Part shown: piece by piece, positions 4,347 through 21,904 of the stretch
How the letters are laid out: every line of letters begins with the position of its first letter
Position numbering within the stretch: position 1 is the stretch's first letter
Source of the DNA: a virus
DNA length: 21,951 nt
Virus record (IMG/VR): IMGVR_UViG_3300010354_000778
Span: 1 to 21,951 of that record
Strand: one strand, 5' to 3'
Translations under genes and position numbers: made by a program
The notes under the pieces: model-generated
The model's database searches: none
What the model was told of the DNA's origin: nothing
The model's input: the letters and a program-made list of their open reading frames with translations, nothing else

Positions 4347-4838
4347 ATGGACACAAATATTTTTAGACAATATCAAGAATTAAAAGAAGCTGCATCGAAT
4401 ATTGAATTGATTGAAAATGTAGATTCTATTGATTTGTATTGCTCTGAAGATAATCATCTAAATGTCATGGAAATTTTAGATGAAGAATATTTTGAGTACG
4501 AAGAAACTGATTTTGGATTTAATATAACTGGATTAACTTTTGATACTGCTGTTGATATTTTATCTGAATATAATTTTTCTGGAGAACTAAACGAAGCATC
4601 TCCTGTTAGAAAAACAGTTGTTCGTGGTGGCAAAAGAAAAATTATTTTTAAATGCCCCCCTGGCCACAAAAGAATTAAACGAAGGTGTATTAGAAGACCG
4701 TCCGCAGAATTAGCAAGAGTCAAACGAGGAGCCAGAAAGGCTGCAAGAAAATCAAGAAGCAAGAAAGCAAGAGCCGCTAGAAGAAGAAAAATTTCTTTAA
4801 AAAGAAGAGCAGCATTTGCAAAACGTCGTCACAAATAA
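4347..4838 (+). CDS. Hyperbasic candidate head/core protein with prohead-protease-type sites
   Basis: A 163-residue protein with two contrasting halves. Residues 1-83 are acidic (many Glu/Asp). Residues 84-163 are extremely rich in Arg and Lys (for example KRGARKAARKSRSKKARAAR) and include a C-x(2)-GH-x(6)-C pair (Cys103, Cys114). Two sites fit the T4 gp21 prohead protease rule [LI]-x-E|[AGS]: LKE|AA after Glu14, close to an N-terminus that resembles a capsid-targeting peptide, and LNE|AS after Glu83, exactly at the acidic/basic boundary. Cutting there would leave an 80-residue DNA-binding-type product. Basic tails with a similar Cys pair occur, as I recall, in prohead-core-like proteins of marine T4-like phages. 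A late promoter box precedes it while gp47 and gp46 flank it. The head role is inferred; the ORF itself is firm. Confidence 0.8.
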   Translation: MDTNIFRQYQELKEAASNIELIENVDSIDLYCSEDNHLNVMEILDEEYFEYEETDFGFNITGLTFDTAVDILSEYNFSGELNEASPVRKTVVRGGKRKIIFKCPPGHKRIKRRCIRRPSAELARVKRGARKAARKSRSKKARAARRRKISLKRRAAFAKRRHK

Positions 4839-11589: not shown

Positions 11590-11997
11590 ATGGAACAGAA
11601 TAATTCGTTGGTTGATTCATTATTAGAAGTAACTTTACAAAAAGAAGACGATTTTTTAAAAATAAAAGAAACCCTAACCCGTATAGGTGTATCTTCTAAG
11701 AAAGAAAAAAAACTTTACCAATCTTGTCATATTTTGCATAAGAAAGGTAAATATTACATAGTTCATTTTAAAGAACTATTTTTACTTGATGGTTTAGAAT
11801 CAGATATTAGTGAAACTGATATTGGCCGTCGTAATACTATAGCAAAATTATTAGAAGAATGGGGACTACTTTCTGTAGTTGATAAAGAAAAAATGAATGC
11901 TATTATTACGCCTCTAAATCAAATTAAAATTCTTCCTCATAAAGAGAAAGGCGAATGGCAACTAGTACCTAAGTATCACATAGGAAAGAAATTTTAA
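11590..11997 (+). CDS. regA: Translational repressor RegA
   Basis: RNA-binding protein that shuts off translation of many early mRNAs, including those of clamp and clamp-loader genes and its own, by covering their start regions. It has 135 residues and very strong similarity to T4 RegA (122 residues): DDFLKIKETLTRIGVSSKKE, KLYQSCHILHKKGKYYIVHF, and LLEEWGLL, and a VPKYHIG end matching T4 VPKYTIG. Compared with T4 it carries about 11 extra N-terminal residues (MEQNNSLVDSL). No ATG lies closer to the conserved part, so the ATG at 11590 is kept, although its ribosome-binding site is weak. It follows gp62 as in T4, but the polymerase gene does not come next. Its stop overlaps the next ATG (TAATG). 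Confidence 0.96.
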   Translation: MEQNNSLVDSLLEVTLQKEDDFLKIKETLTRIGVSSKKEKKLYQSCHILHKKGKYYIVHFKELFLLDGLESDISETDIGRRNTIAKLLEEWGLLSVVDKEKMNAIITPLNQIKILPHKEKGEWQLVPKYHIGKKF

Positions 11998-12386
11998 TGA
12001 CCGGTAATTACGACATAACAGCAGAAGCAAATTCGGATTTTAAACTAGAGATCCAATACACAGATTATAACGATGTCGCTATTAATTTAACAAATAAAAA
12101 ATTAGTATTTACCGTTAAGAGAACTTATTTAAATATTCAGGATGACCTTTTTGCCATCCACAGTCAAGTGGGCGATCAGGTTGAAGGTGCTTTAGAATAC
12201 CCTAATTCCGATAATAGCTATGGTAGCATAGAAATTACGGCAATTTCTGGGGAAATTGTTATAAATATTAATAAAGAAGTTATGGAATTATTAGAGCCGG
12301 GGCAATATTTTTATGCACTTCGTTTGATTAGTAGCAATTTTTCAGAAAATATCTTAAAGGGCAAATTTGAAGTACAGGCATTCTGA
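11997..12386 (+). CDS. Probable virion structural protein, beta-rich (tail/adhesin block)
   Basis: A 129-residue protein opening the late tail block. The sequence MTGNYDITAEANSDFKLEIQ, DVAINLTNKKLVFTVKR, then SIEITAISGEIVININ and GQYFYALRLISS has the alternating beta pattern of the small Ig-like/BppU-like N-terminal domains found in phage baseplate and fibre proteins ('linear gain then ligand' type). I recognise the style, not a named family. AGGAAAG at 11982-11988 precedes the ATG, and the start shares a base with the regA stop, so its translation may follow regA. No signal peptide is visible. A connector between baseplate and fibres is a plausible but unproven role. Confidence 0.72.
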   Translation: MTGNYDITAEANSDFKLEIQYTDYNDVAINLTNKKLVFTVKRTYLNIQDDLFAIHSQVGDQVEGALEYPNSDNSYGSIEITAISGEIVININKEVMELLEPGQYFYALRLISSNFSENILKGKFEVQAF

Positions 12387-12510: not shown

Positions 12511-13479
12511 ATGGCAACAATAGGTAGAAATTCTGGAATAACATATTTCGGCAATAACTCTGCCGCAAGAAATGTCTTTGTTGGTGCTAGAGGCCCACAA
12601 GGAGTAAAGGGTGATACTGGAGTTGGAGTAAAAACTGCAGATATTAATACAAATGGAGAGTTGGTTTTAGAATTAACAAATAATGCAACTTTGAATGCTG
12701 GATCAGTAGTGCCATCTGCAGAAGTATGGACTAAAGATGATGTAATACCAACAAGCATAGGCGGTATTACTGCAGGAACAGTTGGCCAAACTTTAGATGG
12801 TTTGACTCCTATGCAAATATTAGAAAAATTACTATATCCATATCAAGCACTTTCTGTGTCGTCATTTAGTGTTGGATTGCCGATTTCTACCACAGTTGAA
12901 GTTGGAACAATTAGTGCTGCTGGAATCTATTCAACTTCTTGGGCATTTAATAATGCATCAAATCTAACAGCAAATAGTATATCAATATCTCGTTCATCCA
13001 CCACTTTAGCAAGTGGATTAAATGTGAGTCCATTTTCAATAACACACCCACAGTACCAATATACAACTCCAACTCAATTGCCATTCACAATTAGTGCAGG
13101 CCAAAAAGAGGGCGCAAATGTAACTTCTACCGTTAATTATAGTTGGAAGAAAAAAATATGGTACGGGAAATCAAATTCCACTTCATTATCATCATATTCT
13201 GATTTTTCTTCTTTTTCTTCTATTTTTACTCAAGGATTAACTAGTATAAGTTCTGCAAATTATTCGTTTTCTGCGACTACAGGAGACGACCAATATTTAT
13301 ACATTATTGTTCCGGATAATTCGTCATACAGTACATTTATGTCAAATGGATTTGAATTTCCCTTTCAAGCCTCTCAAATAATAACTTTTACAAATTCTTT
13401 CGGGGTAACGCTTACATATAAATATTATAGATCTACATATGCAACAGAATCTGCAGTAATAATAAATGCTGGAGTTTAA
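12511..13479 (+). CDS. Virion structural/tail-fibre-associated protein with a collagen-like motif
   Basis: A 322-residue Ser/Thr/Asn-rich beta protein. Near the N-terminus five Gly-X-Y triplets (residues 25-39: GAR GPQ GVK GDT GVG) form a short collagen-like segment, often found in trimeric phage fibres. Then comes TAGTVGQTLDGLTPMQILEK and LLYPYQALSVSSFSV, a motif I recall from structural proteins of marine T4-like phages, where a 'LLYPYQ' helix precedes Ig-like repeats. The remainder is beta-rich with many aromatic residues and no chaperone or peptidase end. Unlike four of the later genes in this block it lacks the D-x-[GS]-T-[YF] tail (it ends INAGV). No Shine-Dalgarno is visible before its ATG. 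Fibre or tail decoration is inferred. Confidence 0.75.
   Translation: MATIGRNSGITYFGNNSAARNVFVGARGPQGVKGDTGVGVKTADINTNGELVLELTNNATLNAGSVVPSAEVWTKDDVIPTSIGGITAGTVGQTLDGLTPMQILEKLLYPYQALSVSSFSVGLPISTTVEVGTISAAGIYSTSWAFNNASNLTANSISISRSSTTLASGLNVSPFSITHPQYQYTTPTQLPFTISAGQKEGANVTSTVNYSWKKKIWYGKSNSTSLSSYSDFSSFSSIFTQGLTSISSANYSFSATTGDDQYLYIIVPDNSSYSTFMSNGFEFPFQASQIITFTNSFGVTLTYKYYRSTYATESAVIINAGV
13427..13434 (+). promoter_or_regulatory. Possible late promoter box TATAAATA inside the preceding gene, before the 13482 gene
   Basis: An exact consensus box 48 nt before the ATG of the 100-residue structural gene. It is inside coding sequence, so it could be chance in this AT-rich DNA. The spacing and the good ribosome-binding site downstream make a functional role possible. 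Confidence 0.25.
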
Positions 13480-13481
13480 TT

Positions 13482-13784
13482 ATGGCAAAAATACCAGGAA
13501 CAGTGGGTTTAGGTGGAAAAATTGCTCCTAACGACGAAAACGACAAATATCCAGTAACAGACCCAAAATATGGTTTGGGCGGTCTTAGAACAGTGGTAAG
13601 TGAAACAGAAAGAAATGAAATACCATATTTAAGACGCCAATTGGGTATGTTGGTTTATGTAAGTTCAAATAATAATTATTATAAATTAATAAATTTAGGC
13701 ACTCAAGATGGCCCCACAGTAAATGGAGATTGGGAAATATTAACTACCACATCGTCTGGGGACTTGGATGCTGGAACATATTAA
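13482..13784 (+). CDS. Small virion structural protein with C-terminal DAGTY tag
   Basis: A 100-residue protein. The run GLGGLRTVVSETERNEIPYL..GMLVYVSSNNNYYKL..GDWEIL follows the small domain common in phage tail and fibre proteins ('G-x-R-x-V-x-T-x-x-x-R-D-x-I-P..GMLVYV..Y-x-L..W'), which as I recall is a recurrent virion-surface or connector module. It ends DLDAGTY, a tail shared in form with three later proteins of this block. GGAG at 13471-13474 lies 7 nt before the ATG, and the start is 3 nt after the previous stop. A structural role is likely; the exact location in the virion is unknown. Confidence 0.78.
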   Translation: MAKIPGTVGLGGKIAPNDENDKYPVTDPKYGLGGLRTVVSETERNEIPYLRRQLGMLVYVSSNNNYYKLINLGTQDGPTVNGDWEILTTTSSGDLDAGTY

Positions 13785-13786
13785 AT

Positions 13787-13794
13787 TATAAATA
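13787..13794 (+). promoter_or_regulatory. T4-type late promoter box TATAAATA upstream of the 1683-residue fibre gene
   Basis: An exact consensus box in the 43-bp intergenic gap. The predicted start near 13800 gives a leader of about 28 nt that contains GGAG at 13814-13817, well spaced from the ATG at 13828. This is the most convincing late promoter in the window, together with the one at 21908. Confidence 0.65.
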
Positions 13795-13827
13795 TAAGTA
13801 GTATAGATTATCCGGAGATATTAAAAA

Positions 13828-16800
13828 ATGCCAAAAATTCAAATAAAACGCGGTATCACAGATCCAGGAGCAAGTACTTTAACCTCTGCAGGAGAACTTG
13901 CAGTTAATACTAGTGATAAGAAATTTTTTATTAAAACTGCAACCGATAGCACCACTGCACCTATTTGGATGGGTGCACAAATTGTAAATACAGTTAATGA
14001 CTGGAGCAGTGCTGATTTAAGCAAACAGGTACTTACGGGTACTGCGACACGAGATAGAATTAGAAATGCTCCTGAATTATTATTTAATAGTACCGGTACT
14101 ATTGGTGCGTCATTTGGTATTTATAGTCTTAACGGATACATGTGGAATTTTGCAAATAGTGAAATTAATTTTAATAATTCTACATTAAAAAATGCTCCAA
14201 CTCCAGCGTTTGATGGCGATGTTGCAAATAAAAAATACGTAGATAATATCGCAACAGGAATTAGATTTAAAGCTGCAGTAAATAATATTATGTTTGAAGA
14301 TGGTTACGGAAACGCAACTATACCAACATACACAGAAGCAGTAAGTGCAGACTATGTTAGAACACTAAAAACTGAAGTTTATACTCCAGATGCGCCAGCA
14401 CAACCATTTTATGGTTATGCTAGATTTGATATTACGCCGCAGAATAACGATGTCACAGAAACTCTACAAGGTGGAGTTACAATAACTAATTTTCAAATTG
14501 GTGCTACAGTAAAATTAGGTGGAGTTATAATAGGAAAAATTACTAACATATCCCCATTGTATTCAGCGAATGTAAATGAAAGCGTAAAAATTAGAAATGG
14601 TGCTACTAGCACCATCACACATGTGTCTGGAAACGTTACAATCACATTAGATTCAAAGACACCGAGCTCATATACATCTACTCCAAATACTACTTCAATT
14701 ACAATAACAAATGAAGGTAGGGGAGACACATTAACTACTACAGGATCAATAAACTTAGCAGATATAGATTATGCCTCAGTCTGCACAATAAACTCCACAA
14801 CAGGACAACAAACTTGGTCTAATTTTGCAATTAAACCAAACGATAGAGTTCTTGTTAAAGTTTTTTCAGGCTCTGAAGCATATAAAAATGGTATTTACGT
14901 TGTACAAACTGCAGGTACAATAAATATACCATCCTCTATTCTGGGTCCGGGAATGCAAGGAGCCGGTAATAGCAAAATAACGGGAAATGATGTAGTAAAA
15001 CTAAGAGGCGACACTACAAATCAAAACTTATTTTCGCAAAATACTCCTTCAGATATAGATCCAACAACAACTAATAAAGGAACATGTTATCCAACAACAA
15101 CCGGAACAGATTATGGTTATAATTCTAGTACTGGTTTTTGGGAAGACAGTGCAACACCAGCAGGATGGACTTTAGTAAGAGCTACAGATTTTGATATATG
15201 GAACGAAATACCTGGTTCTATTGTTTATGTAAAAGTAGGAACAAATGGCAAATCTAATTGGATTTGTTTGGCAGAAAAAGATATTATAGGAGGAACTTGG
15301 TTAGCAGGCAGTACCTATAATGAATTAGGAAATTCCTCCTATGGTATAGGATTTGGTGAATTTTCAACTGCAGGTGGAATGACCACAACTTATCCTTTAT
15401 ATTCTGATGGAAATAATCTTGGTTTAAATTATATGAGACCATTAACTACGGATCCTATGATGGGAACGTATTTAACATTAGATATAAGACGATATAATGA
15501 TCAAACAAGTTCTGCTAGTGCATATACTATAACTGATATTTCTAGTGATACTGATGTATTAAATAAACCACTATATCTAGGTTACGACACTACTTCAGGT
15601 GCCGAAGGTTATTACTTATATCCAAACCCAAATGCAGGGTCAAGTATTCAAGAATTAGGCACTAGTGATGGCACTGTTACTTTTACTTTTGCTAAGGGAA
15701 GTGGTGATGATAGTATTTATGCAGATAGAGTACAAAATCTTATAACTCAAACAAATGGTCCGATGAAATATGATACTGCTACTGGTTCCCCAATTATAAA
15801 TGGCAATTTAGTTGTAAATGGCCAAGCAGTTGCTTCTAATTTTAAATTTAGTGAGCCTGTAATTACTTCTGCAAGTACTTTTTCTAAATCTAGCAGCGAC
15901 GTTATCTTAGTTGGTCAACAAATCAGTGCAATAACTACTGCAGGCACTAACGGGATTACTGCTACTTTAAGGTCTCATAATGATAGCTCTGAATATGCAT
16001 ATAGTCTAGATGATGAGTTTACAACAAATACCGGTGCAGACTATCCAATAGTCACTTCGGTAACATCCAACTCATTTACTTTAGATAAACCACTACGGCC
16101 ATTTCCAGCACCGGCAGATGTCAGTATATCTGGAGTAAATGTTTATAATACAACAATTATAGGCACAACAGCACCAGTATCAAATGAGTATCCTCTTACA
16201 AGCGCAACCCCATATACTACGAGAACAGGTGATCCTGTTGTTGTAAATAATAATATTGGCAGCAATATTTTATCGGGAACAATATATTATGCTATTGTAA
16301 ATCTGTCTACTCAACGTATAGCATTTGCTTCTTCTTATGCAAATGCGATTGCAGGAATAAAAATAACATCAACCACTGCCGCACCTTCAGGCACAACTGC
16401 AATTACTTATCAATTTACATCTACAAACCACGGATTAAGTAATGGGCAGCAAGTATATTATAATAGTACCGGAAACCCAGCAGGAAACCACACAAACAAT
16501 TCAGTTTATTATGTAACCAGTGTCTCTACAAATGCATTTAGATTAGCATCAACAAGTGCTATTGCCGCTGGTTCAACAAATGGTGTTAGTGATTTAGGAT
16601 TATTGTCAACATTACCAACAAGCACCACACACAAAGTAATTAAAAATATTATTCCAGCAAATACTGAAGCACTAAAAGTTAGAACTGGAAAAATTATAAT
16701 TTCTAGCACAACACAACCCACTCTTCCTGTTCAACTCTTTAATACAGCAAATTATGTTGAAACTGGTGCATTGAATCTAACTGGAAAGTTCCTAAAATTA

Positions 16801-18879
16801 GGAACTGGTACACAAAGAGGAACTGGTGCAGCACAATTTACTCCAGCAGCAGATCAAAATAGAATTTTGGCAAATGTTCAAACGTCTATTACTTATACAA
16901 TATCTAGTTTAAATACTACAACATCTGAATTAGCAATAACCCCAACTGGAACAAAATTACCAACAGGAACTGCTGTTAAATTTTCCACTACATCATCAAT
17001 AACTGGATTGACAAATAACAGTACATATTATGTAATCAATGTTTTAGATGGCTCATCTAATCCTACTAGTGTTGTTAAATTAGCAACAACAAAAGATGAG
17101 GCATTAAACGATGATGCAATATCTTTAACAAGCACCCTAGCTGCTGGTACACACCAATTAATTGAAGAATCTCAATTAAGAGCAGCAGAATTAAGATTTA
17201 ATACTTCAAGTGGTTGGCAAATTAGTAAGACACCTGTTGGTGATAATAGTTCATATGAAGGGTCTCCAACTTACTTTAACTTGGCAACACAAGATGGGAC
17301 AGAAACTTTAACCAATAAAAGTTTAACATCCCCAACTTTAACAACACCAATACTAGGAACACCAGCATCCGGAACTTTAACAAATTGTACAGGATTACCA
17401 ATAAATGGTTTAGTTAGCAGCACTTCATTGGCTTTAGGTGTTGGTAGTATAGAATTAGGGCATGCTTCTGATACAACAATTACAAGAGTTAGTGGTGGCA
17501 AGATTGCTGTTGAAGGTGCCAACATAGCAACGGAACAATATGTTCTAGATAATACAGGCGGTGCAGTTTATAGTTCAGTTTCAAATGCTTCTGTAAGAGC
17601 AATAACTGGAACTATAACATATACCCATTCGTCTGGTTCAAGCACAATAGCAGTTACAGCAGGTGGTGATTTAAATACTGATTTTGAAGGAACATTTACT
17701 ACTACTGGCGCTAGATTATTAGTTAAAAATCAAGCCACTGCAGGTCAAAATGGTATCTATACTATAACATCATATACTAGTAATTCTGTTTATACGCTCA
17801 CAAGAGCTGCAGATTTTGATAGTTCTGCAGAAAGCAGAGCGGGTGGTATAGTATTTGTTAGTGGTGGAACAACTCAAGCAAATACTTCGTGGGGCGTATT
17901 GCTCACATCTGTTATTACAAGTGCGGCTTGGACAGCTGGACCAACAACTTTAGTAATTAACTGGGGACAAACCTCTGCTCCTGGTGCAGGGACAACGTAT
18001 TCTGCAGGAACTGGCTTAACGCTTACGTCAACAACATTTGCCGTTGATAGTGCAACGATACCGTATTTAGCAAATAATAATACATTTTCTGGTAATAATA
18101 CATTTACTGGTGACATAACATTAAATACTGCTAGCAAATCATTAACAATAGGTAGTACTTCTGCAGGGTTGAGTGTTGCAGGCACCACAACATTAAGTGG
18201 TACTACAAATCTAACAGGCGCAACAACTTTGACAAACGCCGGTGGTCTTACATTACGACGAGCAGCAAATCAAGACGGAATTATTCTTAATGGTAGAGCA
18301 GGTGGAACAGCCGGTCATACAGTAACCTTTACACCAACAACACTCAATGGCAGCAGAACAATAACATTACCTGATGTAACCGGAACACTTATAACAGATG
18401 GCAATTTGTCTGCAATTACATCAGTTGGAACATTAAGTGGGTTGACTGTATCTAAATCAAGTGTCAATACAGCAACTTTAACAAATACTGCACTAACTGC
18501 AAATAATTCTATTTTAGTGTTGCACAAGAGCCCAACAAGCGGAACAGATTCCAGCACATATTCAGAAATAAATCTAAAATATACTACATCTGGCGGTACC
18601 GTAACCGATAGATTCTTTGGCATGAAATCTGGAGGAAATGTATATGTTGCTTCTGCAAATGGTGGAACAACTCCATTATTAGAAATTACAACTGCTGGTG
18701 TACTCAGCATAAATAATGGAGCAACTCTAACTTCTGATGCCGCTGCAGATTCAAATCAAGGCAGATTAACTTTAAATTACAATATGAATGTTGCATCATC
18801 AAGAGGCTATAAAGTAAATGGAACTACAGTTATAGATGGTTCTAATGTTTTTGTAGATATGGACTGTGGAACTTATTGA
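13828..18879 (+). CDS. Large tail fibre / receptor-binding adhesin (1683 residues)
   Basis: A very long Thr/Ser/Asn-rich beta protein, probably a trimeric fibre or adhesin that contacts the host. Residues 1-50 (MPKIQIKRG..GELAVNTSDKKFFI) are the phage fibre attachment module, repeated in the 19181 gene. Further along: NKKYVDN at about 134-140; a DRVLVK..NGIYVV..RATDFD domain at about 335-485; a block of three related GxxV..YYV..LA repeats at about 798-1111; the fibre motif TLTNKSLTSPTLTTPILGTP at about 1153-1172; a second YVLDN plus RLLVKN..NGIYTI..RAADFD domain from about 1238; and FSGNNTFTGD, ITLPDVTGTL and GYKVNGTTVID near the C-terminus. It ends DMDCGTY. No intramolecular chaperone or peptidase domain is visible. 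A late promoter and good GGAG precede it. Confidence 0.88.
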   Translation: MPKIQIKRGITDPGASTLTSAGELAVNTSDKKFFIKTATDSTTAPIWMGAQIVNTVNDWSSADLSKQVLTGTATRDRIRNAPELLFNSTGTIGASFGIYSLNGYMWNFANSEINFNNSTLKNAPTPAFDGDVANKKYVDNIATGIRFKAAVNNIMFEDGYGNATIPTYTEAVSADYVRTLKTEVYTPDAPAQPFYGYARFDITPQNNDVTETLQGGVTITNFQIGATVKLGGVIIGKITNISPLYSANVNESVKIRNGATSTITHVSGNVTITLDSKTPSSYTSTPNTTSITITNEGRGDTLTTTGSINLADIDYASVCTINSTTGQQTWSNFAIKPNDRVLVKVFSGSEAYKNGIYVVQTAGTINIPSSILGPGMQGAGNSKITGNDVVKLRGDTTNQNLFSQNTPSDIDPTTTNKGTCYPTTTGTDYGYNSSTGFWEDSATPAGWTLVRATDFDIWNEIPGSIVYVKVGTNGKSNWICLAEKDIIGGTWLAGSTYNELGNSSYGIGFGEFSTAGGMTTTYPLYSDGNNLGLNYMRPLTTDPMMGTYLTLDIRRYNDQTSSASAYTITDISSDTDVLNKPLYLGYDTTSGAEGYYLYPNPNAGSSIQELGTSDGTVTFTFAKGSGDDSIYADRVQNLITQTNGPMKYDTATGSPIINGNLVVNGQAVASNFKFSEPVITSASTFSKSSSDVILVGQQISAITTAGTNGITATLRSHNDSSEYAYSLDDEFTTNTGADYPIVTSVTSNSFTLDKPLRPFPAPADVSISGVNVYNTTIIGTTAPVSNEYPLTSATPYTTRTGDPVVVNNNIGSNILSGTIYYAIVNLSTQRIAFASSYANAIAGIKITSTTAAPSGTTAITYQFTSTNHGLSNGQQVYYNSTGNPAGNHTNNSVYYVTSVSTNAFRLASTSAIAAGSTNGVSDLGLLSTLPTSTTHKVIKNIIPANTEALKVRTGKIIISSTTQPTLPVQLFNTANYVETGALNLTGKFLKLGTGTQRGTGAAQFTPAADQNRILANVQTSITYTISSLNTTTSELAITPTGTKLPTGTAVKFSTTSSITGLTNNSTYYVINVLDGSSNPTSVVKLATTKDEALNDDAISLTSTLAAGTHQLIEESQLRAAELRFNTSSGWQISKTPVGDNSSYEGSPTYFNLATQDGTETLTNKSLTSPTLTTPILGTPASGTLTNCTGLPINGLVSSTSLALGVGSIELGHASDTTITRVSGGKIAVEGANIATEQYVLDNTGGAVYSSVSNASVRAITGTITYTHSSGSSTIAVTAGGDLNTDFEGTFTTTGARLLVKNQATAGQNGIYTITSYTSNSVYTLTRAADFDSSAESRAGGIVFVSGGTTQANTSWGVLLTSVITSAAWTAGPTTLVINWGQTSAPGAGTTYSAGTGLTLTSTTFAVDSATIPYLANNNTFSGNNTFTGDITLNTASKSLTIGSTSAGLSVAGTTTLSGTTNLTGATTLTNAGGLTLRRAANQDGIILNGRAGGTAGHTVTFTPTTLNGSRTITLPDVTGTLITDGNLSAITSVGTLSGLTVSKSSVNTATLTNTALTANNSILVLHKSPTSGTDSSTYSEINLKYTTSGGTVTDRFFGMKSGGNVYVASANGGTTPLLEITTAGVLSINNGATLTSDAAADSNQGRLTLNYNMNVASSRGYKVNGTTVIDGSNVFVDMDCGTY
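14830..15285 (+). repeat. First copy of the 'NGIY..RA-DFD' fibre module
   Basis: Encodes DRVLVKVFSGSEAYKNGIYV, then after an insertion LVRATDFD and a GSIVYVKVGT..WICLAE end. The same order of elements recurs at 17708-17910 in the same gene. The first copy is much longer owing to a Gly/Thr-rich insertion. Confidence 0.6.
16219..16374 (+). repeat. Fibre beta-repeat, copy 1
   Basis: Encodes RTGDPVVVNNNIGSNILSGT, IYYAIVNLSTQRIAFASS and YANAIAGIKIT. It shares the pattern 'G-x-x-V..L-x-[GN]-x-x-[VIT]-Y-Y-[AV]-[IV]..[FL]-A..A' with two later copies. Confidence 0.55.
16420..16599 (+). repeat. Fibre beta-repeat, copy 2
   Basis: Encodes NHGLSNGQQVYYNSTGNPAG, NNSVYYVTSVSTNAFRLAST and a following Ala/Gly-rich turn. 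This is the common phage-fibre 'HGL-S-x-G-x-x-V-x-Y..Y-Y-V..F-x-L-A' unit. Confidence 0.55.
16957..17160 (+). repeat. Fibre beta-repeat, copy 3
   Basis: Encodes LPTGTAVKFSTTSSITGLTN, NSTYYVINVLDG, VVKLATTKDEAL and LTSTLAAGTHQL. The THQL end echoes LSTLPTSTTHKV after copy 2, suggesting the repeat unit extends past the YYV core. Confidence 0.5.
17708..17910 (+). repeat. Second copy of the 'NGIY..RA-DFD' fibre module
   Basis: Encodes ARLLVKNQATAGQNGIYTIT, LTRAADFDSSAESRAGGIVF and TSWGVLLT. It is the compact form of the module whose longer copy lies about 2.9 kb upstream in the same gene. Both copies follow a 'K-Y-V-D-N'-type element. Confidence 0.6.
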
Positions 18880-18892
18880 TCAAAATAATCGA

Positions 18893-18900
18893 TATATATA
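18893..18900 (+). promoter_or_regulatory. Possible late or sigma70 -10-like element (TATATATAAT) before the coiled-coil gene
   Basis: TATATATA differs from the late box by one base, and the overlapping TATAAT at 18897-18902 is a perfect -10 hexamer without a good -35 box. It lies in the 39-bp gap before the 18919 gene, with AAAGGAGA at 18905-18912. Which of the two readings applies, if either, is unclear. Confidence 0.3.
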
Positions 18901-18918
18901 ATGTAAAGGAGATAAATT

Positions 18919-19149
18919 ATGAACGATATGTCAAAATATAATGAAAGTGTAATAATTCCATACCTTCAAAAGAAATACCAAGAATTAAGTAACCAAAATA
19001 TGGTTCTTGAGGTAAATCTTTTGATGGAAAGACAAAAAAATGCGGAATTAGAATCTAAGTTAGCAGAATATACTTCTGTGGATAAACCTAAAGAAGACAA
19101 GAAAAAGAAAAAAACAACAGAAGAAGTATTAGATGCAAGCACATATTAA
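18919..19149 (+). CDS. Small coiled-coil protein with C-terminal DASTY tag
   Basis: A 76-residue charged protein between the two large fibre genes. Residues about 12-50 (VIIPYLQKKYQELSNQNMVL, EVNLLMERQKNAELESKLAE) show a heptad pattern typical of a parallel coiled coil. A Lys-rich linker follows (DKPKEDKKKKKTTEE), and it ends VLDASTY, like the C-termini of the flanking fibres. It has the strongest Shine-Dalgarno in the tail block (AAAGGAGA, 6-7 nt before ATG 18919). A Met three codons in (18928) is a less likely start. No family is recognised. Trimerising coiled coil plus shared tag suggests a fibre adaptor or assembly partner; this is inference. Confidence 0.75.
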   Translation: MNDMSKYNESVIIPYLQKKYQELSNQNMVLEVNLLMERQKNAELESKLAEYTSVDKPKEDKKKKKTTEEVLDASTY

Positions 19150-19151
19150 TT

Positions 19152-19159
19152 CTTAAATA
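19152..19159 (+). promoter_or_regulatory. Weak late-promoter-like box CTTAAATA before the 907-residue fibre
   Basis: CTTAAATA differs from TATAAATA at its first two bases. It lies in the 31-bp gap, 21 nt before the ATG at 19181. There is no clear Shine-Dalgarno after it, so this promoter call is tentative. Confidence 0.25.
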
Positions 19160-19180
19160 GATTGGGTGTAGTTTTTTATT

Positions 19181-21904
19181 ATGCCTCCAGTATTAAAAAT
19201 AAAAAGATCAGCAACATCGGGATCGGCCCCTGCATCACTTTCTGATGGAGAACTTGCTGTAAATACTACTGATAAAAAATTATACGTAGGAACTTCCGGA
19301 AGCGTTGTAGAATTGACTGGTGGTGCAGGTGGAGGTATCACTTCTATAGGATTAAATGTTCCTTCTTCTATATTTACTTCTAATGGAACAATAACATCAA
19401 ATGGAAGTTTAGGGTTTAGTTTAAATAATCAAAACGCTAATCTTATTTTTGCATCTCCAGACAATACATCAGGTGCCCCAAGTTTTAGAACATTAGTGCC
19501 GAAAGATCTAGCAGCAAGTGGAACCGCTAATCAATATCTTCAAATAAATAGTTCAGGCAATTTAGTTTGGAATACGATTTCTACTTCTGGCGGTGCCCCA
19601 TCCGGCACAAATGGTCAAATACAGCTTGTGGTGAAAGATGGTGGAGTATTTGATTCATTAACAAATTTTCAAATATTAACAAATTCTTCTTATTTTTTTA
19701 AGAACAATATAATAACAGTTCCAACGCAAAATACAACATATAGTAAAATTAATTTTCCATTTAATAATATATTTTCAGAAAATGATATCGTGGGAATATC
19801 CACTGGTGGTGGAGCAACTACTAATTATGTAATTAGAAATGTAACTAATACTTCTTTTAAAACTTATGCATTACCAACATCTTCCGGATCAGCTATAGGT
19901 TCATTAGAAACATTAAGTGGCTCAAATACTTCGTCTATACAATTATCGCCACCTAGCAATTCCACTACTCCTCTATTTTTCACAGGAACACTTAAAACCC
20001 CTGCTGGAACTGCTCCATCAACAATAACAGTCGCTACTGCTATTGTTGGTAATTTTAAAGTAGGTATGCAAATAACTAGTGGTGTTAGACCTGTAATTAT
20101 TAGAGGGTGCATAGTCGATACAACTAGTCAAAACAGCGTGTCGCTATATGATAGTATACCAACTACAACAGGAATTCTTGCTAATTGTTATGTTGATGTT
20201 TTAAAAAATGAATTATCTACAGATGCTAGTGCAAACAATGCACAAACAAATGCAATTACTTGCGTATTTGCTTCGCCAAACACTTATATATCAAGCGCTA
20301 ATACAACCACAAGAATTGTAACTTTTAATCAAAATATTTTAGGTAGATTTAATACAGATACTACATCCGGAAGTGGAGTCATACTTAAAAAAAGCGATAC
20401 TGAAACAACTATGGATATTGTAGTATATCAAAAAGGCGCGATGCGTTCAAATACCTACATAACTCACATAGATGCAGCAACCGGAATTCTTACATTAAAT
20501 CAAAGACAGCATAACGCAACAGATACGGCTGGTGTGACCCTAACTGGATATGCAACATTTCCGGAAAGAAACGTATTTTCTTTTGGAACACCTTTATACA
20601 AAACTACATCAGAAATAATAACAAACGAAAGTATTTGTTTAATTAAACAAATAAATGATGCTAATAGAAATTTAGAACAAAAAATTTTATTTAAAGCCCC
20701 AGAAGCATATACAATCAGTGTTAGTGCTATTTCAACAGCAACAGTAACACTGTCCGTAAAAAATAATTTAATAGAAATGTGTGTTGGAGATATTATATTA
20801 TATGGAACAAGCACAAGTGGAACAACCCAATTAACTCCAACAACATTAACTTATATAAAAAGCATAAATTACAATAATGGAACAATAACTTTAAATTCTG
20901 CGACGGAATTAACCGGAGCGACTCAATTAACAATCAGATCTTCTAGATATGTAAAAAGTGTAATTGAACACAGATCGTTTCCTTATGACTCATATAACCC
21001 AACAAATAGATTTAATCATTCAAATATTATAAAATATGCTCGCGATACTGGTGGTTCTGGCTCTTTAGATTACGATTTAAGTTCAGTATCATATGAAAAA
21101 ACATTATTTGATGTGCAAAAAGGATCTGGAAATAATTTAGGATCAATAAATGATATGGGTTTATATATTTGTAGCGATACTTCTATAAAAATAGGAATAT
21201 CTGCTATTTCTAGAGGAGCAAATGTTGATAATAAGTCTATAAAAGAACCTATAGATAGTATTTTACCACACATTTCTATAGAACCACTCAAATATACTTC
21301 AGATTATTACAATGGTATATATTTTAAAAATGTTCCAGTAAATAATGATCCTTTAGACAATTCAAATTATTTTTATGTTATGGGGTGCAAATCTGCAACT
21401 CCAAGAAAAAATGATGGAGCTAATTTTTTAACTTGGTATAGACTGTCTGCAACTAGTATTTCTAGTTTGATTGGTGGCCCCGGTACCACAGTAAACCCTA
21501 AAGAAGAAATAAATGAAATAACTGGATTGCCAGAATTAGTTATTTCTTTAGCAGATGAAGTCCCAATAAATACCTCTTTGACAGTTCCTCTAATTAAAGG
21601 AACTGCTGGTGGAGATTTAAATATCACAACAGAATCGCCCGATTCAAATATAGTTTTATCGATTCCACAAAGCAATACAGATGTAGTTTTATCTACAGGA
21701 AATGTATATATTACTTCTGGGTTAGATGCTGGTGATGTTTATGTACAATCAGCAGAAGATGTATATCTAACTTCACAAAATGTAAGAGTTTCTGGTAATT
21801 TAATTGTAGATGGCTATATTCAATCAGGAACAGGCTTTCAGGGTGACAATACTGACGCAGAAGAGCCAATTACTGGTCTTGTCATGGATGGGGGCACTTT
21901 CTGA
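19181..21904 (+). CDS. Second tail fibre / adhesin sharing the N-terminal attachment module (907 residues)
   Basis: A Thr/Ser/Asn-rich beta fibre protein. Residues 1-50 (MPPVLKIKRSATSGSAPASL, SDGELAVNTTDKKLYVG) duplicate the attachment module of the 1683-residue fibre, so both probably dock on the same part of the tail. Next come a Gly-rich linker, ITSIGLNVPSSIFTSNGTIT and KDLAASGTANQYLQINSSGN, a common fibre motif. A long unique central region (about 160-800) has beta-rich repeats around SSIQLSPPSNS, RIVTFNQNILGRF and HRSFPYDSYNPTN, and is the likely host-contact part. The C-terminal LTVPLIKGTAGGDLNITTES..VYITS..VYVQSAEDVYLTS..VRVSGNLIVDGYIQ repeats are typical of T4-like fibres, and it ends VMDGGTF. 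No clear ribosome-binding site precedes the ATG. Confidence 0.87.
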   Translation: MPPVLKIKRSATSGSAPASLSDGELAVNTTDKKLYVGTSGSVVELTGGAGGGITSIGLNVPSSIFTSNGTITSNGSLGFSLNNQNANLIFASPDNTSGAPSFRTLVPKDLAASGTANQYLQINSSGNLVWNTISTSGGAPSGTNGQIQLVVKDGGVFDSLTNFQILTNSSYFFKNNIITVPTQNTTYSKINFPFNNIFSENDIVGISTGGGATTNYVIRNVTNTSFKTYALPTSSGSAIGSLETLSGSNTSSIQLSPPSNSTTPLFFTGTLKTPAGTAPSTITVATAIVGNFKVGMQITSGVRPVIIRGCIVDTTSQNSVSLYDSIPTTTGILANCYVDVLKNELSTDASANNAQTNAITCVFASPNTYISSANTTTRIVTFNQNILGRFNTDTTSGSGVILKKSDTETTMDIVVYQKGAMRSNTYITHIDAATGILTLNQRQHNATDTAGVTLTGYATFPERNVFSFGTPLYKTTSEIITNESICLIKQINDANRNLEQKILFKAPEAYTISVSAISTATVTLSVKNNLIEMCVGDIILYGTSTSGTTQLTPTTLTYIKSINYNNGTITLNSATELTGATQLTIRSSRYVKSVIEHRSFPYDSYNPTNRFNHSNIIKYARDTGGSGSLDYDLSSVSYEKTLFDVQKGSGNNLGSINDMGLYICSDTSIKIGISAISRGANVDNKSIKEPIDSILPHISIEPLKYTSDYYNGIYFKNVPVNNDPLDNSNYFYVMGCKSATPRKNDGANFLTWYRLSATSISSLIGGPGTTVNPKEEINEITGLPELVISLADEVPINTSLTVPLIKGTAGGDLNITTESPDSNIVLSIPQSNTDVVLSTGNVYITSGLDAGDVYVQSAEDVYLTSQNVRVSGNLIVDGYIQSGTGFQGDNTDAEEPITGLVMDGGTF

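Follow-up and report, generated by a model that had tools for sequence, protein, structure and literature searches.

A recurrent C-terminal tag in the fibre block

Why do four proteins encoded in a single fibre block of an aquatic T4-like phage, among them two long fibres, a 100-residue protein and a coiled-coil protein, end in nearly the same residues? The question is raised by the virus record IMGVR_UViG_3300010354_000778, the 21,951 bases of which (the whole stretch analysed, referred to here as the window) carry T4-like replication genes first, with homologues of a UvsW-like helicase, a late sigma factor, a gp46/47-like nuclease, gp45, gp44, gp62 and regA, and then the fibre block (Table 1). 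Between the gp47- and gp46-like genes lies a gene for a 163-aa protein (4347-4838), kept in the related contig L002, the C-terminal third of which is very basic and histone- or protamine-like.

A first-pass annotation of the window had proposed that four proteins share the terminal motif D-x-[GS]-T-[YF] and that two neighbouring ones lack it. Both statements were confirmed: the four C-termini read GDLDAGTY (stop at 13784), VDMDCGTY (18879), EVLDASTY (19149) and LVMDGGTF (21904), and the genes starting at 11997 and 12511 end in KGKFEVQAF and IINAGV. The further claim that the bodies of the four differ completely holds for the 100- and 76-residue proteins, which by BLASTP do not convincingly resemble one another or either fibre, but not for the 1683- and 907-residue fibres, the first ~37 residues of which are 49% identical (E ~1e-5). 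The N-terminal domain common to these two fibres is the probable partner of the tag.

Table 1. Features of the fibre block in the window; roles in the fibre are predicted.
Feature	Position	Strand	Evidence or remark
LtfC/p132-like (phrog_1084) Ig-like protein, untagged; probable fibre collar or anchor	11997..12386	+	phrog_1084 E 2e-11; AF2; structural matches
322-aa protein, untagged; collagen-like stretch; no socket domain	12511..13479	+	
100-aa adaptor, first segment; tag present, socket domain absent; predicted chain start	13482..13784	+	orthologues in L002 and L005 end in DAGTY and DAGNY
Tag LDAGTY of 100-aa adaptor	13764..13781	+	
1683-aa fibre segment; N-terminal socket domain, C-terminal tag	13828..18879	+	
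IKIKRG-type N-terminal domain (proposed socket) of 1683-aa fibre	13828..13977	+	alignment A3; HMM E 1.5e-19
Tag MDCGTY of 1683-aa fibre	18859..18876	+	kept in L002 and L005
76-aa coiled-coil protein; Lys-rich linker and tag; possible plug-imitating assembly factor	18919..19149	+	tails differ among relatives
Tag LDASTY of 76-aa coiled-coil protein	19129..19146	+	
907-aa fibre segment; N-terminal socket domain, C-terminal tag	19181..21904	+	HMM; weak Mtd_N match below Pfam cut-off
IKIKRG-type N-terminal domain (proposed socket) of 907-aa fibre	19181..19324	+	HMM E 5e-20
Tag MDGGTF of 907-aa fibre	21884..21901	+	
First five codons (MATIK) of next gene, cut by contig end	21937..21951	+	consistent with a further socket-type protein

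The tag is commoner than composition predicts. From the residue composition of the window, at least four of its 22 genes would end in D-x-[GS]-T-[YF] with a probability of roughly 1e-13, and although the motif was picked post hoc, this chance is still negligible after correction for the many possible motifs. Across nine contigs the tag ends 30 of 69 fibre-block proteins versus 0 of 372 others (Fisher 1e-27). A chance origin was rejected on the window figure together with this replication in independent contigs. Nor is the tag lost in close relatives, as all four genes recur in both L002 and L005, where they end respectively in DAGTY/DAGNY, DCGSY/DCGTY, DASTY/DASTY and DGGSF/DGGTF. Over the 60 residues that precede its tag, the long fibre is 18-33% identical among the three phages (18-22% between the window and the other two), with a tag of the form DCG[TS]Y retained throughout. 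An alignment of 57 distinct tagged ends gives the consensus [LIVM]-D-[GCA]-G-[TSEN]-[FY]-COOH, every position of which is encoded by several synonymous codons. Because the codons vary and the tag is kept despite divergent preceding residues, selection acts on the peptide and not on the DNA. The earlier suggestion of a selected C-terminal signal, probably one for docking, is well supported by a tag which outlasts the divergence of the preceding sequence and synonymous codon variation, and which recurs across the family.

The same annotation had tentatively pointed to DGG-type ends in other marine T4-like phages, correctly so, as the tag is found in many cyanophages of the Kyanoviridae (S-B05, S-B43, DSL-LC02, DSL-LC03, S-8S55, S-CAM9, P-HM1, P-SSM2, ACG-2014f, S-SRM01, S-T4 and S-CAM7) and also in S-SKS1. 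The search with the tag pattern found none in S-CAM1, S-SSM7, S-PM2, S-SM2, Syn33, Syn19, P-TIM68, S-SCSM1, S-CREM2 and the Pelagibacter phage HTVC008M. Virion mass spectrometry exists for S-CREM2, which has neither the tag nor the domain, so those data are silent on tagged proteins in the virion. Searches of GenBank phages by tblastn with the 907-aa fibre, a 72-aa coiled coil and a 271-aa fibre gave no match, and a scan of viral contigs with the 76-aa coiled-coil protein gave no confirmed relative. The module lies downstream of regA in the clade of the window and elsewhere near baseplate, neck or terminase genes; because these genomic surroundings differ between clades, the module moves as a unit. 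In another contig the fibre module is followed by three paralogous Gly-rich proteins in tandem (L009:16817-19689), of 312-321 aa (MNNGF[YF]GFP...GGDGYV).

The N-terminal domain that follows the tag

A domain of ~48 residues with the pattern IKIKRG...GELAxNT...KxxIG (alignment A3), here proposed as a socket for the tag, starts most of the long proteins that bear a tag and, in each chain, one protein that does not. Comparison of a domain-bearing protein with the PDB by sequence gave no convincing match, and the AF2 model of a 156-aa protein with both domain and tag, from L011, was poor (mean pLDDT 53.5, below 50 in the tag region). Of the 39 IKIKRG genes in the training loci, 37 come directly after a tagged gene, whereas untagged genes are followed by an IKIKRG gene in only 2 of 49 cases (Fisher 4e-13), an intervening small coiled-coil gene being skipped in these counts. 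Two domain-like N-termini in G008 (LILKRG and LLLKRG) were recognised by regex and not by HMM.

Three single-protein scans, made with the N-terminal sequences of IKIKRG proteins alone, retrieved 184 new IMG/VR loci. With a small coiled-coil gene again passed over, 108 of the 121 unique genes that precede the domain end in a strict tag, versus 32 of 306 other genes of the same loci (Fisher 3e-56), these loci being kin of the query phages and so new data which are phylogenetically not independent. Several of the 13 misses are near-variants of the tag (DYGSF, DYGGF, EGGSF, QGGTF, IDCGFFD and IDGGTYS), and others are small spurious or coiled-coil ORFs picked as the upstream gene. Tag and domain also meet within one polypeptide: a 443-aa protein of DSL-LC03 (L117:8324-9655) is a natural fusion of adaptor and IKIKRG fibre, at the junction of which, WVVTNEIDGQVNPTIKIKR / WVVTNEIDGQVNPTIKIKRTT, a tag-like IDG is followed immediately by the domain. 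The distal fibre gene is located elsewhere in the genome in many phages, and adjacency is not visible there.

The final 15 bases of the window, after the fibre ending in DGGTF, read ATG GCA ACA ATT AAA; in the place of this gene the relative L002/G001 has an 817-aa IKIKRS protein without a tag. The window (21951) and L005 (19982) stop at the same base, 15 nt inside the next socket-type gene, a shared end point which suggests that assembly broke off at a distal fibre gene that is variable or shared.

Numbers of tags and domains

Tags and N-terminal IKIKRG domains were counted in 22 phage records and are equal in number in 20 of them (0:0, 1:1 or 2:2; permutation p about 5e-6 for the 22 records and 0.001 for just the 12 that have tags), a result to be read in the knowledge that the records are related genomes, the counts of which are not fully independent, and that equality is partly built in, as middle segments bear both ends. 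Nine of the 22 were picked after the hypothesis had been formed, and eight of these agree, six of them as 0:0. The tags of coiled-coil proteins were excluded, pattern hits were taken only at the ends of real ORFs and a domain E below 1e-4 was required; weak domain-like hits in HTVC008M, S-CAM1, Syn33 and Syn19 (E 0.003 to 0.02) were left out. What the counts add independently is that for every protein that starts a chain, with a tag but no domain, there is one that ends it, with a domain but no tag. L022, for example, has two starts (80 and 135 aa), two untagged ends (549 and 353 aa) and one middle segment (1003 aa), and a domain protein encoded away from the module was untagged in every case read.

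The two exceptions are S-B05, with three tags and two domains, in which an extra 79-aa protein without a socket domain (L114:14708-14947) ends in YDGGSF, and S-SCSM1, with no tag and one domain. Socket-type proteins for which no tagged gene was found occur in S-SCSM1 (L144:4708-9144) and in L080 (3932-4726), both of which have an LtfC-like gene. In a 642-kb uncultured phage an untagged 893-aa protein (L003:12001-14682) opens with a relative of the N-terminal ~87 residues of the window's 100-aa adaptor.

The LtfC/p132-like and coiled-coil proteins

The AF2 model of the first protein in Table 1 (pLDDT 89.5) has its best structural match in DT57C LtfC (8hqz_Q, Z 11.2, 107 residues aligned, rmsd 2.1 A) and gives a Z of 10.9 with T5 p132 (7qg9_L), LtfC and p132 standing ahead of other Ig-like folds. 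The protein has no Pfam hit, and its best cyanophage relative scores 24.6 bits against a cut-off of 27 for LtfC (PF23926). Judged by the model, it is related to LtfC by fold. As a full member of the LtfC/p132 family it would form a dodecameric ring about the tail and accept fibre strands. In DT57C and T5 the LtfC/p132 ring holds the lateral fibres, the N-terminal strands of which are added to its sheets (PMC10713586; PMC10038345), and since the predicted fold matches these ring proteins, the block of the window probably encodes a collar protein and then a segmented fibre. As in DT57C and T5, the gene adjoins those of tail fibres, and it is the first in almost every tagged module. The two systems differ in that it is the fibre N-terminus that enters LtfC in DT57C, where C-terminal tags are not reported, and in that the phage of the window is T4-like. 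LtfC-like genes are also present in the tagless phages HTVC008M, S-CAM1, S-SSM7, P-TIM68 and S-SCSM1, of which only the last has a strong IKIKRG domain. P-SSM2 has two such genes at 174 kb (L122:8908-10448), away from the two tagged genes, which lie together at 101-103 kb.

In many modules the next gene after the fibre encodes a coiled-coil protein, a gene absent beside the shortest chains; in S-T4 and S-SRM01 the tagged adaptor is adjoined by no such gene. Its product ends in a looser tag, borne by a flexible Lys-rich tail (DASTY, DGDVF, DGQTY, DAGDFA or STEEF). Sequence is a poor guide to the family of a coiled coil; compared with a view to T4 gp57A-type fibre chaperones, the 76-aa protein has phrog_35872, of unknown function (E 0.007), as its sole match.

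A proposed connector and its alternatives

The best reading of these sequence patterns, and one we hold to be likely, is that tag and domain link the segments of a trimeric fibre as plug and socket. The C-terminal tag of one segment would be the plug, docking on the IKIKRG domain at the N-terminus of the next, so that segments would join head to tail. Such a chain would start with a small adaptor bearing a tag and no socket, continue through one or more fibres bearing both, and end in a distal fibre with a socket and no tag, which is presumably the receptor-binding one. The adaptor would probably attach to the LtfC/p132-like protein, the gene for which lies a little way upstream. Fibre proteins are usually trimers, and if the segments are trimeric then three plugs would meet three sockets. 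The tag of the coiled-coil protein has no place in this chain; by mimicking the plug, that protein may cap sockets before or during assembly.

The first-pass annotation had envisaged a docking peptide for a single baseplate or adaptor site, a trimer lock or a recognition tail for a chaperone. A selected signal, probably one that docks, has stood up well, although one common site for all the tags is less likely than serial joints, as the tags precede IKIKRG proteins and the counts match. A common site of this kind, for instance on the LtfC/p132-like collar, with the tagged proteins arranged in parallel, remains the sole serious contender among the rivals, albeit an unlikely one. Its appeal lies in the LtfC-like gene that heads almost every tagged module and in the peptide strands which DT57C LtfC accepts from its fibre (PMC10713586). 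However, that fibre binds by its N-terminus, LtfC-like genes occur in tagless phages which, S-SCSM1 apart, lack strong IKIKRG domains, and neither the tag-then-domain gene order, the matching counts nor the DSL-LC03 fusion would be predicted. Rather less credible is a cap or folding lock at the C-terminus of each trimeric fibre, acting without a partner. Many tagged proteins are indeed fibre-like, and several share a beta-rich stretch before the tag (GNLIVSGYIETDTGIRG...), but Lys-rich coiled-coil tails and short adaptors, the bodies of which are unrelated, end in the tag as well, distal fibres of this type do without it, and the pairing with the N-terminal domain of the next protein would go unexplained.

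We are more doubtful still of a tail recognised by an assembly chaperone, perhaps the coiled-coil protein. A coiled-coil gene does stand after the fibre gene in many modules, and other phage fibres require dedicated chaperones (PMC9608196), but the coiled-coil protein is itself tagged in many phages and S-T4 and S-SRM01 have a tagged adaptor with no such gene adjoining; if there is a chaperone role, it may apply to the coiled-coil protein only. Finally, the motif might be a by-product at the DNA or RNA level, from a Shine-Dalgarno sequence in the last codons or a recombination site, as 29 of 100 unique ends have a stop codon overlapping the next start and DGG codons can contain GGAGG. To this we give almost no credence: a Shine-Dalgarno-like string is present in only 24 of the 100 ends and 9 of the 29 overlapping ones, the next starts in the window are 31-43 nt distant, and the codons for Asp, Gly, Thr and Phe/Tyr all vary. 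Such synonymous variation refutes this origin as a general explanation.

Comparison with known systems

The nearest known kind of structure to the proposed plug-and-socket chain is the T4 long tail fibre, in which successive proteins (gp34-gp35-gp36-gp37), mostly trimers, build the fibre. The C-terminal end of gp34, which probably meets gp35/gp36, is partly disordered in the crystal, and the joints of the long fibre are not fully resolved (PMC5537660). However, no domains common to the two systems were detected, and the T4 joints are not described as a single short, reused C-terminal peptide; the 1683- and 907-aa proteins have no PHROG hit at E 0.01, to the gp34-gp37 sequence family or any other. 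The N-terminus of the 907-aa fibre is weakly similar to Mtd_N (PF18454), from the major tropism determinant of a Bordetella phage, although the scores of 20.3 bits for this fibre and 23.0 bits do not reach the cut-off of 26.3. We know of no partner peptide for Mtd. In polyketide synthases a short C-terminal docking element meets the N-terminal element of the next subunit and so fixes the order of the chain; the proposed connector would work alike, an analogy which implies no homology.

Literature searches, with most subscription journals outside their scope, returned no hit for the strings DGGTF or phrog_1084, and nothing on such a tag by a broader motif. In the searchable literature a short connector of this kind, reused at several C-termini and matched by an N-terminal domain, thus seems undescribed.

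Implications

Cyanophages of this type abound in seas and lakes, yet the annotation of most of their fibre proteins goes no further than hypothetical. It is an evenly balanced question whether the six-residue plug and the ~48-residue socket form a general connector code in a large T4-like group, in which fibres would be lengthened, shortened and re-tipped by the addition or swapping of genes and the coiled-coil protein would be a plug-mimicking assembly factor. If the connector is real, plug and socket would offer a small and directly testable protein-peptide pair. The order of the segments and the distal protein would then be legible from sequence, the tip being the socket protein without a tag and probably the receptor-binding one, and it would be explained how these phages exchange fibre genes that differ greatly in length and body whilst keeping the joints intact.
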